Below are positions 37,167-41,332 of a stretch of DNA of 41,336 nucleotides, piece by piece (the stretch's first letter is position 1; the number at the start of each line of letters is the position of its first letter). Under the pieces are notes generated by a model. The model was given only the letters and a program-made list of their open reading frames with translations. It ran no database searches and had not been told where the DNA came from. The position numbers were made by a program, and so were the translations under genes. Source of the DNA: Nitrospiraceae bacterium (GTDB lineage: Bacteria; Nitrospirota; Nitrospiria; Nitrospirales; Nitrospiraceae); NCBI GenBank assembly GCA_919902505.1, contig CAKKRE010000042.1, positions 1 through 41,336 of the forward strand, read 5' to 3'.

Positions 37167-37241
37167 GCGGGAATAGCTCAGTGGTAGAGCATCGCCTTGC
37201 CAAGGCGAGGGTCGCGGGTTCAAATCCCGTTTCCCGCTCCA
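37167..37241 (+). tRNA. tRNA-Gly (anticodon GCC)
   Basis: The acceptor arm GCGGGAA (37167-37173) pairs with TTCCCGC (37231-37237), discriminator T at 37238 and encoded CCA at 37239-37241. The anticodon stem TCGCC/GGCGA encloses TTGCCAA, so the anticodon is GCC. The 3' part from 37197 onward is repeated at 41285-41332, so this tRNA gene is the integration target of the element to its right and its own 3' end was rebuilt by the element. Confidence 0.97.
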
Positions 37242-37244
37242 ATT
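37197..37244 (+). repeat. attachment site, left end of element (within tRNA-Gly)
   Basis: The first copy of the 48-bp direct repeat covers the anticodon loop to just past the CCA end. The int gene stop (37248) lies three bases beyond it, which is the usual position of a tRNA-targeting integrase. Confidence 0.9.
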
Positions 37245-37247
37245 TTC

Positions 37248-38321
37248 TCAAGCACTTGCACAACACTCTCCGACGGCTCCACCCTCATTGTGATAGTTTT
37301 GTGATATCTGAGGGTGAACGCGCTCCAGAATCAACACTCCCTCTCTTAAACTCTCCGGCGAATGATGCGCGTAGCGCTGCGTCATAGCTGCTGTTTTGTG
37401 CCCCAACAGACGTTGCACCTTGTACAAATCGACACCAGCTTGTGCGAGCCGAGTGGCAAAGGTGTGTCTCAAATCGTGAAAGCGGAAATCGTTCAACGCT
37501 GCCTTCGTTGCCGCGAGTCTGAATGATCGCGTGAGGTTTCGAGCGTCGAATAGCGTCTCAGCTGAACTCGCAAACACGAACGAGCCTGCTGCCCTCTTTG
37601 ACGCTTTTCTCTTCAGCAAGTCCGTTAACCGACCGTTGAGCGGGACAGTCCGCTTCTCGCCATTCTTGCTTCGCATCACCACCAGGACCTGCCGATTGAG
37701 GTCTATGGCTTGCCATTGCAAGTTGAGAATCTCGCCTCGCCGCATGCCGGTGTTTAAGGCAAAGACAATGATGTCCTGCAGCCACGGTGCCGAATGAGCC
37801 AGTAATCGGCCCTCTTCATCCGAGGACAGCCACCGGTCGCGCTCGTTGCGCACTTTCTCCATGCAGACTCTCTGCATGGGATTGTCTCGACACCATTCCC
37901 ACTCTCGGATAGCCACGTTGAAGCTATGCCGAACCAAGCCGAGTTCTTTATTGACCGTGGCTGGCTTGGCCGTCTCACGCCTCTTCGCCTTGTAGGCGGC
38001 AAGAAGTTTCGGTGTGACTTCTGCAAGATTCAAGGAGCCAAACGCACTTCGTAAATGCGTGAGGCACTGCTCGTCCCGCCGTCGGCTTGCCGGGGCTTTG
38101 GTGATTGATCGCTCTTTCAGGTATCGATCCATCATGTCGTTGAACGTATGGTCTTTGGCTTCCAACGTGTCAAAGAATCGGCCCTCAACAATCTTGACCC
38201 GTACTTTCCCGAGAATCGCTTCTGCGAGGCGCTTGTCCGTTGTCCCTGTGGACCGTCGTACTTGCTGGCCCTGATGAATGAACGTCATCCACCATACTTT
38301 ATTGCGTCTAAACAGCCCCAT
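37248..38321 (-). CDS. tyrosine-type site-specific integrase
   Basis: The integrase recombines the element into tRNA-Gly. In this 357-residue reading an N-terminal arm-binding region (about 1-55) precedes a SAM-like core-binding domain (60-145) and the catalytic domain with Arg194 (GMRRGEIL), Lys219, His282 and Arg285 (FHDLRHTF), His308 (LLGHKT) and nucleophile Tyr317 (RYAHH). ATG 38321 is chosen because GGAGG lies six bases before it; ATG 38327 abuts the ribosome site, and the longer start at 38471 overlaps the HTH gene heavily. Its 5' end overlaps the HTH gene 3' end by 14 bases. The gene points towards the att site it acts on. Confidence 0.93.
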   Translation of the reverse strand: MGLFRRNKVWWMTFIHQGQQVRRSTGTTDKRLAEAILGKVRVKIVEGRFFDTLEAKDHTFNDMMDRYLKERSITKAPASRRRDEQCLTHLRSAFGSLNLAEVTPKLLAAYKAKRRETAKPATVNKELGLVRHSFNVAIREWEWCRDNPMQRVCMEKVRNERDRWLSSDEEGRLLAHSAPWLQDIIVFALNTGMRRGEILNLQWQAIDLNRQVLVVMRSKNGEKRTVPLNGRLTDLLKRKASKRAAGSFVFASSAETLFDARNLTRSFRLAATKAALNDFRFHDLRHTFATRLAQAGVDLYKVQRLLGHKTAAMTQRYAHHSPESLREGVLILERVHPQISQNYHNEGGAVGECCASA

Positions 38322-38619
38322 CTGCATCCTCCTTCTGGATGAGGCTTGACTGAATGGTTTCCCCGTGACGGGAAGTATAGACTTCGCGTTTTGAGGCTTC
38401 AATGAGCTGGTCAAGGTCACGGGTGTAGTGGCGAGTCGGCAGAGAGAACGGCTTGACGGAATTGGTCTCAAAGCCCTTCAGCCAGGCCTGAATCGCCTCA
38501 GGTTCAAAGCGGACGAGACCGTGAATGCGCCGGCAGGGAATCTTGTTCTCTGAGGCCCAGAGATAGAGTGTGGATGGCTTGATATTGAGCCAAGCCGAGA
38601 GCTCTTTGACGTTGAGCAT
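38308..38619 (-). CDS. AlpA-type helix-turn-helix protein (excisionase-like)
   Basis: The 103-residue product has an N-terminal HTH of the AlpA/MerR-like kind: LNVKELSAWLNIKPSTLYLWASEN, here in parts LNVKELSAWLNIK and STLYLWASEN, then PCRRIHGLVRFEPEAIQAWL. Proteins like this either direct excision by bending att DNA or activate int expression. ATG 38619 is chosen; a GTG four codons upstream (38631) is also possible. It overlaps int by 14 bases. The rest of the chain is basic. Confidence 0.8.
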   Translation of the reverse strand: MLNVKELSAWLNIKPSTLYLWASENKIPCRRIHGLVRFEPEAIQAWLKGFETNSVKPFSLPTRHYTRDLDQLIEASKREVYTSRHGETIQSSLIQKEDADGAV

Positions 38620-38661
38620 GTGCAGATACACCGGGGGAGTCTCTCGACACCCCCAGTCCCC

Positions 38662-39663
38662 CTAACATGGGCTGCCCGCGTGACCGCCGGCAGACCGGTG
38701 AAACCGAGCGGGCTGTTTGAGCAAGTTCCGGTGTCGGTCCTTCCACCTGGAGATGCCCCTGACAATTTCTTCCAGTAGCCATTCTTCCCCTCCAGGGGTG
38801 GCACAAATGACCGCCAACATCGGCGTCAGGGTGTCACTCACCCATCGTTTCACATTTTGCAGGGTCTGCACCTGCTGCTCCTGGGCCAATCGCCCCTTTT
38901 GAAATCCCTCCGTCAGGAGGGCGTACCACTCCAGCATCGGAGCCCGGTATCGTTCTTCATCGGCATGGTTTGAAGTCTGCCGGAAATCCACATAGGACCG
39001 GAGCAACCCAATGACTAACTCCTTCCAGTCGGTTTCGTCTAACGTTGCCAGTGCCCTTGCGCACTGTTCGGCGCGATCCTTTTTGAGCTCTAATTCCCAC
39101 CGAGTCCCGTACTCCGGCCAGTTCTCTTGTCCTTTGCTCTGCAGTTCCAGCCGTTTGTCGTAAATGCGCAATAAGGTCTGACTCTGAGGACTCCCGAAAT
39201 ACATCGTCTCACCCGTCGTCGCTCCGGTCCCATGCGTCAGGTTTGAGACGATATGCCGGACTTGAGCCGCCCTCGTGACGCACTGGCCTGCAGCAACCGC
39301 CTCTCGAATCGTCCTGACCGGGACCGTTCCCGCCCGGTCATCCAGGGCGCAATCAATGCGCGTGACGTGTCCTTGCTGCTTATGCACCCACTGGAGGAGG
39401 GTTCGGATTTGATCCAGTGTCAGGGCGGACGCCAGGCCGCCCGACAGATCCACATGGATTTCATTCGGACGACGAGGGGCATTGGTGCCCAATTTGCCGA
39501 CCCCACGCAGACCGTCGCTTCTCATCCAGGACAAGGGATAGCCTCGGAACCCGCCCTTAGCCTTGCTCCAGTCTCCACCGAGGACCCGCATCGTCTCTTG
39601 CGGGTTACTGGCTAAGACCGTGAAGGCCAGCCAATCAATCGTGAGGGTGAAGCTCGACTCCAT
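38662..39663 (-). CDS. Rep_trans-family rolling-circle replication initiator
   Basis: The 333-residue product resembles the pT181-type replication initiators (Rep_trans), which nick the origin with an active-site tyrosine. Visible family motifs: an N-terminal IDWLAFTV, a central TRIDCALDD (about 101-109, metal-binding acidic cluster) and YFGSPQSQTLLRIYDK (about 155-170) with candidate catalytic Tyr168. The ATG at 39663 is 40 bases from two strong hairpins. The presence of such a protein in an element with an integrase is also seen in ICEBs1-type and other integrative elements, where the protein serves both replication and transfer. Confidence 0.8.
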   Translation of the reverse strand: MESSFTLTIDWLAFTVLASNPQETMRVLGGDWSKAKGGFRGYPLSWMRSDGLRGVGKLGTNAPRRPNEIHVDLSGGLASALTLDQIRTLLQWVHKQQGHVTRIDCALDDRAGTVPVRTIREAVAAGQCVTRAAQVRHIVSNLTHGTGATTGETMYFGSPQSQTLLRIYDKRLELQSKGQENWPEYGTRWELELKKDRAEQCARALATLDETDWKELVIGLLRSYVDFRQTSNHADEERYRAPMLEWYALLTEGFQKGRLAQEQQVQTLQNVKRWVSDTLTPMLAVICATPGGEEWLLEEIVRGISRWKDRHRNLLKQPARFHRSAGGHAGSPC

Positions 39664-39702
39664 GGAATCTATCGAACTCCTGTACGGAGCGCTGTGGGTA
39701 GC

Positions 39703-39772
39703 GCCCCCGTGTTACCAAGACGGGGGCCATTCCGGTCCGCCCCGCAGCCTCTCGGCATGCGGCGCGGACCGG
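39703..39772. repeat. two tandem hairpins upstream of rep: candidate origin
   Basis: The first hairpin has perfect 8-bp arms GCCCCCGT/ACGGGGGC (39703-39710 and 39720-39727) with a 9-base loop. The second has 9-bp arms (39732-39740 and 39764-39772), one C-C mismatch and four more pairs inside, with a 13-base loop. Both lie between rep and the ribbon-helix-helix gene. Rolling-circle plasmids use hairpins at the nick site, so this is a good candidate origin, but the nick site is not proven. It could also be a terminator after the regulator gene. Confidence 0.55.
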
Positions 39773-39808
39773 CTTTGCCTGCTGATGGTGAGGCGGATAG
39801 CACTGTAC

Positions 39809-40057
39809 TCAGCGTCCTTCCTGTGTCGGTCTGACCAGCTTCTGTCGGACCACGCCAAAGGCCTTTTCTCCGACCTCTCTTGCCACGATCTTAATTGCCT
39901 CGGCCTTGCCGTCCATCACCAGGCTCATGAGGACTGCCCCGCGGACGTACTTGGAGACGGTCGTCCCCTCATCTGATGCACACTTCTCAATGAGCTTGCG
40001 TTCTTGTTCGGTGACTTTGAATTGCAGCGTTTCGGTCTTAGTATCCTCACCCTTCAT
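39809..40057 (-). CDS. ribbon-helix-helix / MobC-like DNA-binding protein
   Basis: The 82-residue product has TLQFKVTEQERKLIEKCASD (about 8-27) and TTVSKYVRGAVLMSLVM, which is the pattern of a ribbon-helix-helix protein with an N-terminal beta strand, like the MobC or plasmid copy-control family. ATG 40057 is chosen because GGAGG lies five bases before it; ATG 40069 overlaps the ribosome site. The gene directly precedes rep and has its own promoter with an operator-like palindrome, so it may repress itself and rep, or help at the origin. Confidence 0.75.
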   Translation of the reverse strand: MKGEDTKTETLQFKVTEQERKLIEKCASDEGTTVSKYVRGAVLMSLVMDGKAEAIKIVAREVGEKAFGVVRQKLVRPTQEGR

Positions 40058-40070
40058 AACGTCCTCCATG

Positions 40071-40111
40071 ATATGTATGCATTACATAATATAGTACATA
40101 TAAATTGTCAA
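40071..40111 (-). promoter_or_regulatory. AT-rich promoter with operator-like inverted repeats
   Basis: On the minus strand TTGACA lies at 40106-40111; candidate -10 boxes are TATTAT (40086-40091, 14-base spacer) or TATGTA (40083-40088, 17). The inverted repeat ATATGTA...TACATAT (40071-40077 and 40095-40101) and a smaller one, ATGTA-N5-TACAT, cover the -10 region. Such short inverted or direct repeats are what ribbon-helix-helix repressors bind in other elements. The start of the regulator gene is 14 bases away. Confidence 0.5.
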
Positions 40112-40334
40112 TGGCCGTGCTAGGTTTATGAGAGAGCTTCCATTTCAAGTGGCCAAACGCCCAACCCGGTTACCGAAAATAAATTCCTTCCGTACTCCTC
40201 TAATCAGCTTGTTTTGTAACCCCCCCCCAGTCAGGTGGGGTTCTGATCCCACTGAGGACTACTCACTTGCCGACGCCAACGATTAGACTTAGCCTCGTTC
40301 ATCCTGCGACCGATTTTCCCGGGGATACTAATCG

Positions 40335-41108
40335 ATGCCGACTCGCAAGCACATATCCTTGGTTGTCTTTTTCTTGACCGCCCTGCTTATCGGCTGTGCA
40401 AGTGACCAAGTCACTCCTATTAAGGTTGTCACCCTTAGAAGTGGCGCTGGACAAGCGATATCTCATATCCCTCCCTGTAGACCGACTGCCCCTGAGTCGA
40501 ATGTGGAAGATCATCTACCAGTGGACCATCCCAAGGTGATAGGGGCATACCTTTGGCAGCAGATTCCACAACCGACCTATCCTACTAAGGCTCAACAACG
40601 TGGCTGGCAGGGAGTTGTACTCATTTGCGTAGTTTTCTTGAAGGACGGTACGATAACGGAAGCTAAAGTGCACCAAAGCTCTGGCATTCCATTGCTCGAC
40701 AATAATGCTCTAGACGCTATCCAATCAATGAAGCGGCTTAATCTTGATCTGGATCTCCATCGCCCGGAATATTCCGCTGTAATTCCTTTTCGATACCACC
40801 TGCAGCCTATGACTGAACATCAACGTAAGATTGCTGCTAATGTATGGGCTTGCCTTACTGCCCAAGCAGCTAAACCATCTCAGTTGATAGGGCTTGCGTC
40901 CGCTCAAAGCGGCACTGTCATTATGCGGGTAACGTTGAGGACGAACGGTGAAGTCGAAGAAATAAAGTTAGACGAAAGTTCAGGATCGGACGTGCTCGAT
41001 CAGACCGCTACAAAATTGGTCATGGATTGCTCCCCATATCCACTAAACAGTACTGATGCTCATAAGCCAACAGTCTTTGTAGTCCCGTTTTCCTACAACA
41101 TCAGATAG
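40335..41108 (+). CDS. lipoprotein with two TonB-C-like domains (element cargo)
   Basis: The 257-residue product has a lipoprotein signal (hydrophobic SLVVFFLTALLIGC, lipid Cys at residue 21). The mature chain has two copies of a TonB C-terminal-like fold: first copy about 85-155 (PTYPTKAQQRGWQGVVLI, then KDGTITEAKVHQSSGIPLLD, then VIPFRYHL), second copy about 180-257 (QSGTVIMRVTLRTNGEVEEI, ESSGSDVLDQTA, FVVPFSYNI). Typical TonB proteins have one such domain and an N-terminal membrane helix with a proline-rich linker; here there is neither the linker nor the helix, so energy transduction is doubtful. It is divergent from the replication genes. Codon use and base composition are more A+T-rich than in the housekeeping genes, as expected for transferred DNA. 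Confidence 0.8.
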   Translation: MPTRKHISLVVFFLTALLIGCASDQVTPIKVVTLRSGAGQAISHIPPCRPTAPESNVEDHLPVDHPKVIGAYLWQQIPQPTYPTKAQQRGWQGVVLICVVFLKDGTITEAKVHQSSGIPLLDNNALDAIQSMKRLNLDLDLHRPEYSAVIPFRYHLQPMTEHQRKIAANVWACLTAQAAKPSQLIGLASAQSGTVIMRVTLRTNGEVEEIKLDESSGSDVLDQTATKLVMDCSPYPLNSTDAHKPTVFVVPFSYNIR

Positions 41109-41134
41109 TAAGAGACAATCAGTTCAAACGGACG

Positions 41135-41190
41135 TGTGCTAGATTTGTGCTAGAAGTCGTCAGAAAGTATCAACCTCGTCAGAACCTATC
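41135..41190. repeat. short direct repeats near the right attachment site
   Basis: TGTGCTAGA occurs at 41135-41143 and 41146-41154 (11 bp apart), and CGTCAGAA followed by two variable bases and TATC occurs at 41158-41171 and 41177-41190 (19 bp apart). They lie between the lipoprotein stop and the right 48-bp repeat. Integrase arm sites and excisionase sites have this kind of layout. Confidence 0.5.
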
Positions 41191-41284
41191 GACCCAATCG
41201 ACAGTGCCCAAACTGAGCCACTATCAGGAAAAATCGGGGAAACCACGGCTCAATCAAGCCCCTACGAAATTACTCTTTTCAGAA

Positions 41285-41332
41285 TTGCCAAGGCGAGGGT
41301 CGCGGGTTCAAATCCCGTTTCCCGCTCCAATT
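41285..41332 (+). repeat. attachment site, right end of element
   Basis: The second exact copy of the 48-bp repeat. It contains the 3' part of tRNA-Gly from the anticodon loop to four bases past the discriminator-CCA, but not the 5' half, so it is a remnant of the original target and not a functional tRNA. Confidence 0.9.

Follow-up and report, generated by a model that had tools for sequence, protein, structure and literature searches.

A two-hairpin origin module in a probable integrative satellite of filamentous phages in Nitrospira

Results

The window, that is, the whole stretch of 41,336 nucleotides analysed here, carries an integrated element of approximately 4.1 kb (positions 37197-41332) with the genes int, xis and rep, one att repeat of which lies in the 3' part of a tRNA-Gly gene (Table 1). 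The order rep-xis-int, with nothing in between, characterises elements of this type, and xis follows directly after rep in the compact clade of relatives. No morphogenesis genes were found among the ORFs of the element, which comprise int, xis, rep, a NikA-like gene and a TonB gene, and a search for Zot in the window's own genome gave no match. Between att and the hairpin H1, the lineage carries variable cargo: PIN and MazF-like toxin families, a TIR protein, an NYN protein and lipoproteins. At one locus (L091), a TIR_2-domain protein matching Thoeris and short-Argonaute TIR models lies beside a large uncharacterised ORF; this region is possibly defence cargo of a satellite.

Table 1. Features of the integrated element and its putative origin
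Feature	Position	Strand	Remarks
att repeat inside tRNA-Gly (37167-37241)	37197-37244		48-bp identical repeat; ARAGORN
Tyrosine integrase (int)	37248-38471	-	PF00589, E 8e-39; adjoins the att repeat in tRNA-Gly
xis/AlpA-like HTH_17 protein	38308-38631	-	PF12728, E 1.7e-9; excise domain weak
rep, Rep_trans initiator (PF02486)	38662-39663	-	333 aa; catalytic Tyr168; Pfam E 2.4e-33
H2, predicted nick-site hairpin of a rolling-circle (double-strand / plus) origin	39703-39727	-	Loop CTTGGTAAC; invariant alignment columns, family-wide conservation
H1, 17-bp interrupted hairpin	39732-39772	-	GNNA tetraloop (GAGA here); 4 nt 5' of H2
NikA-like ribbon-helix-helix protein, variable upstream gene	39809-40069	-	PF21983, E 7.5e-8
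TonB_C-domain lipoprotein-like cargo	40335-41108	+	PF03544, E 7e-28; variable region between att and H1
Second att repeat	41285-41332		Spacing 4,088 bp

On the rep strand (minus), the gap between the stop of the neighbouring gene at 39809 and the rep ATG at 39663 (39808-39664) reads ...CCGGTCCGCgCCGCAtGCCGAGAGGCTGCGGgGCGGACCGG AATG GCCCCCGTCTTGGTAACACGGGGGC, followed by 39 nt and the ATG. The preliminary description of this region, which reported perfect tandem stems of 8 and 9 bp about 40 bases before rep in an intergenic area of 145 bases, was accurate: the gap measures 145 nt, H2 ends 39 nt before the ATG, and both stems lie where they were placed. H2 consists of a perfect 8-bp stem, GCCCCCGT/ACGGGGGC, and a 9-nt loop, while the perfect 9-bp outer stem of H1, CCGGTCCGC/GCGGACCGG, continues inward with a mismatch, 5 bp, 3 bp and the GAGA loop. 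As single-stranded DNA the gap folds with -39 kcal/mol (z -4.4; none of 200 shuffles was equally good). However, when the whole 41-kb window was shuffled 20 times, 4 of the shuffled sequences contained, at some position, paired perfect stems of at least 8 bp and at most 30 nt apart, so that the hairpin pair by itself is only mildly unusual and the case for the hairpins rests on their conservation.

The conservation of H2 extends across the family. Of 70 family loci, with Rep identities as low as 40%, 67 have the pattern GCCCCCG..GGTAA.ACGGGGGC before rep; in the form GCC[C/G]CCG-loop-CGGGGGC it sits 12-47 nt before the gene. In an alignment of 37 sequences (A1), the arms with ACGGGGGC are nearly invariant, and almost every loop has the core GGTAA, AGTAA or AGTCA. 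Approximately 150 exact sites of the GGTAA type were found in 61 of the 175 family genomes, compared with none for reversed-pattern controls. The idea that H2 is a motif of Nitrospira only was rejected, because similar hairpins lie beside rep in pSTK1, pLCAKO.1, a Paenibacillus larvae plasmid and Inoviridae of INPHARED; of 80 IMG/VR contigs retrieved by the H2 motif alone, 49 encode Rep_trans, with rep on the GTAA strand in all 49.

H1 is conserved in another manner: its sequence varies among relatives and clades, while its fold, GNNA loop and spacing are constant. Across satellites and inoviruses, its folding reaches a mean z of -3.6, compared with -0.19 in control windows 100-150 nt upstream, and the centre of its apical loop lies 24.6 +/- 1.9 nt from H2. 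Read on the rep strand, most of these loops are GNNA tetraloops with GCC/GGC as closing pairs. Elements with Reps more than 90% identical are near-identical up to the outermost base pair of H1 and divergent immediately beyond it, and homology was lost inside H1-H2 in 0 of 253 pairs. Covariation analysis by RNAalifold on a MAFFT alignment was uninformative because H2 hardly varies and the bulges of H1 shift; per-sequence folding statistics were used instead. The preliminary description had proposed to look for the stems in homologues that keep rep, and nearly all of these retain H1 in structure, in addition to the 67 with H2. Judged by these comparisons, the conservation of both hairpins far exceeds chance.

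Given that the gap also folds strongly as RNA (z -5.2), the hairpins might act as a terminator of the upstream gene, a role that the preliminary description had weighed against its own proposal, or as an attenuator of rep. We rejected this reading as highly improbable: no U-tract or terminator pattern was matched at H1 or H2, no Rfam family reached threshold for the region, and the nearly invariant H2 loop occurs with unrelated upstream and downstream genes, including in elements that have no rep. In several relatives, the upstream HTH frame runs into or through the hairpins; at L114, L111 and L133 an HTH_17 frame passes through both, so that the origin overlaps the C-terminus of the protein.

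Rep matches PF02486 with 115.9 bits (cut-off 29.6), and its best match among solved structures is RepSTK1 (4CIJ; sequence match, E 8.6e-19). The residues D10, R102, D104, D108, Y155, G157, R166, Y168, K170, R188 and E190 are invariant from Rep through RepSTK1 to the inovirus Reps. The catalytic Y168, R166/K170 and the metal-binding D10, D104 and E190 align with RepSTK1, and all RepSTK1 active-site residues named by others (PMC4797284) that lie within the conserved core are present. By domain, active site and the hairpin on the rep strand, Rep and H2 appear to belong to the Rep_trans class of initiators and origins. Published nick sites fit the H2 loop by analogy: MOBT and Rep_trans enzymes nick at CT'AA in a hairpin loop (PMC9371924), and RstA nicks the second hairpin of the CTXphi ori(+) in its loop, between G and T (PMC4439123). 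In the window, the nick is predicted on the minus strand at G39715/T39714 or T39714/A39713. H2 is thus almost certainly the nick hairpin of a Rep_trans rolling-circle origin, the nicking itself being predicted, and the origin proposed earlier for this site is supported. H2 is the only one of the two hairpins with a nick-type loop (GGTAA), and H1 seems to be a different device. In most of the Gram-positive plasmids tested, H2 has no hairpin on its 5' side, which argues that H1 is dispensable for nicking as such.

At two loci (L023 and L038), all sequence 5' of the origin is gone, with the break at or no more than 2 nt from the predicted nick (GT'AA); at L038, which is near a contig end, the joined sequence resembles by eye part of a transposase gene. 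These breaks could be due to Rep-mediated strand transfer or to MAG misassembly.

An enzyme of this class next to a NikA-like gene might also belong to an integrative mobilizable element, in which Rep would be a MOBT-like relaxase acting at H2 (oriT = dso), with the ribbon-helix-helix protein as helper and a conjugative pore as exit. Streptococcal elements of this kind are driven by Rep_trans relaxases (PMC7563843), and the oriT of ICESt3, Tn916 and ICEBs1 shares with H2 the GC-rich hairpin, a TAA-type nick loop and a PF02486 enzyme (PMC9371924). However, the match of Rep to the NCBIfam MobT equivalog is weak (E 7.6e-15; 54.6 bits against a cut-off of 600), and the H2 loop reads GTAA as in inoviruses and not CTAA as in MOBT. 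While RelSt3 of ICESt3 binds IR2, 68 bp downstream, through its HTH domain, a search of Rep for an N-terminal HTH domain gave no match, the catalytic domain beginning at residue 8-10. Moreover, the NikA-like gene is found in some relatives only and is missing from many, and Rep is nested among Zot-bearing inoviruses. We therefore regard mobilisation by conjugation as unlikely.

The named relatives of the element are Nitrospira, including Ca. Nitrospira defluvii. Sister elements of 4.4-7.5 kb occupy tRNA-Gly, Arg, Val, Glu and Thr genes between repeats of 47-53 bp. Reps approximately 51% and 43% identical to that of the window have Zot 3.0-4.1 kb downstream, and a full inovirus gene order was found near related reps (rep, pIII-like, Ace/pVI-like, Zot, coat-like and integration genes). 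The Rep tree, whose inner forks are weaker and whose outgroup branches are long, unites 44 elements that lack Zot in a single clade (96/87); 41 of them display the compact order, and the flank of the other 3 is too short. The sister of this clade is Zot-bearing (100/99), and both lie within the Nitrospira inoviruses. Therefore, a lineage without morphogenesis genes, which it dropped or never had, persists and spreads. Zot was found in 16 of the 29 genomes of the genus; most of the other 13 carry the element. MAG data of this kind may include chimeras. At L108 (G021:C33) and L109 (G034:C6), approximately 6 kb or less separates a satellite from an inovirus close to one and the same tRNA-Arg gene, an arrangement that recalls RS1-CTXphi arrays. 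Searches by protein patterns found no close relatives in IMG/VR, and in the literature searched, namely open PMC papers, Nitrospira elements of this kind were not found described; this does not prove that they are new.

A self-replicating, integrative plasmid-like element or a decayed inovirus, using H1 and H2 for intracellular amplification only and spreading passively, would be in keeping with the lack of a helper in the window's genome and with some degenerate copies (stop codons, fragments). Against this stand approximately 45 close copies in 27 genomes, whose mostly open rep frames, several tRNA targets and exact att repeats point to active horizontal spread, and we consider passive spread improbable. 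The copy in one genome (G040) was rejected as evidence of movement because its identical site and approximately 96% identity through the flanks indicate shared inheritance and not transfer. We favour the reading as a filamentous-phage satellite over that as a plasmid-like element.

A further class of elements (L128-L141) was recovered by pattern matches with no rep nearby. They have H1 and H2 at normal spacing, and HMM searches found no Rep in them, a few loci being cut by contig ends. In nearly all, H2 is followed by a zinc-ribbon ORF of 138-150 aa and an integrase; the element at L133, for example, measures 2,968 bp between 55-bp repeats at tRNA-Glu. The ORF is present in 30 of the 175 genomes. 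H2 lies 20-96 nt upstream of it at each of the 25 ORF-encoding loci that were examined, counting L167, where a variant hairpin arm was read by eye. The conserved protein (L128-L167) combines C-x2-C...C-x2-C with a C-terminal helical region; it gave only sub-threshold zinc-ribbon matches and no assigned Pfam or PHROG, and its AlphaFold model (mean pLDDT 66.6) had no significant fold match in the PDB. At L141 (2795-2818), H1-H2 occurs with neither rep nor the zinc-ribbon ORF, adjoined by an XRE-like regulator and an integrase by tRNA-Leu.

The loop variant GTCA, found at 20 sites, is confined to one genus. Twelve of these sites have rep and fall in the inovirus clade, nine of them with Zot within approximately 4.1 kb, and eight are rep-less; among rep-less elements, variant and genus are associated (Fisher p 1.6e-4). 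This distribution is as expected if an inovirus Rep acts in trans, although common descent of the origins would also produce it. Under either account, the origins retained by the rep-less elements are of the type seen in the local inoviruses.

Discussion

We propose, with a probability of approximately 70%, that the window element integrates into Nitrospira genomes as a satellite of filamentous phages (inoviruses), since its Rep lineage branches within those of Zot-bearing Nitrospira inoviruses and has no morphogenesis genes. As would be expected of an inovirus satellite, the replication and integration genes are inovirus-related and structural genes are absent. H1 and H2 would together form the cis-acting origin module of the element. 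Int and Xis would excise it at the tRNA-Gly att sites, whereupon Rep would nick the rep-coding strand through Tyr168 in the GGTAA loop of the extruded H2 and remain on the 5' end, while the 3' end would prime rolling-circle synthesis and yield circular single-stranded DNA. A helper inovirus would provide what the element itself lacks, namely coat and export proteins. Several observations count against this proposal: the absence of a Zot-bearing helper from the window's genome and from the 13 Zot-less genomes of the genus, most of which carry the element; the search of IMG/VR, which yielded no close relatives; the NikA-like gene by the origin and the weak MobT match, both of which also fit conjugative mobilisation; and an H1 sequence different from that of inoviruses in the same genomes, in which its fold, GNNA loop and spacing recur, so that a packaging signal common to both is putative.

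H1 would fold on the single-stranded DNA just 5' of the nick. In Ff phages, the packaging signal and the minus origin precede the plus origin and gene II. By analogy with this order, the most likely phage function of H1 would be that of packaging signal, minus-strand origin or both, a tentative assignment to which we give slightly less than even odds.

The origin resembles several known systems. In common with the double-strand origins of Rep_trans plasmids (pT181 family, pSTK1), it has a GC-rich hairpin next to a Rep_trans gene, with the nick (predicted in the window) placed in the loop, and the pSTK1 hairpin tctacccccgtTGTGTAACacgggggtaga is a close match to H2. However, pT181 has a Rep-binding repeat 3' of the nick (PMC4797284), whereas the second hairpin lies 5' of it here, and the window element, unlike these plasmids, is integrative. 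With the ori(+) of CTXphi it would share a filamentous phage origin and a G/T nick in a hairpin loop (PMC4439123), which is predicted in the window; the CTXphi origin spans 167 bp and needs HU, and the phage integrates by host Xer, in contrast to the element's own integrase acting in tRNA genes. The satellites RS1 and plasmid pDolos likewise have no structural genes of their own and depend on a helper inovirus (PMC11389934), a dependence that we infer for the window element. Unlike them, elements of the window type encode a tyrosine integrase of their own, occupy tRNA genes and carry variable cargo, and a further class of them lacks rep.

It is about an even call whether Nitrospira harbours three tiers, namely inoviruses, rep-bearing satellites such as that of the window, and satellites of approximately 3 kb, with little beyond the H1-H2 origin, the zinc-ribbon gene and an integrase, which would be replicated and packaged wholly in trans. 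H1-H2 would then be the smallest complete signal that an element needs in order to hijack a filamentous phage. These natural rep-less elements make the minimal cis signal for replication and packaging, as well as the trans action of Rep, directly testable. The largest inovirus survey used the pI/Zot gene as the sole conserved marker (PMC6813254), which would not detect elements of the present kind since they lack Zot, and the origin motif offers a gene-independent means of finding them. Furthermore, the cargo, including a TIR-domain protein, toxin-antitoxin-type genes and lipoproteins, suggests that nitrite oxidisers exchange genes through these elements, including some genes with defence-like domains.
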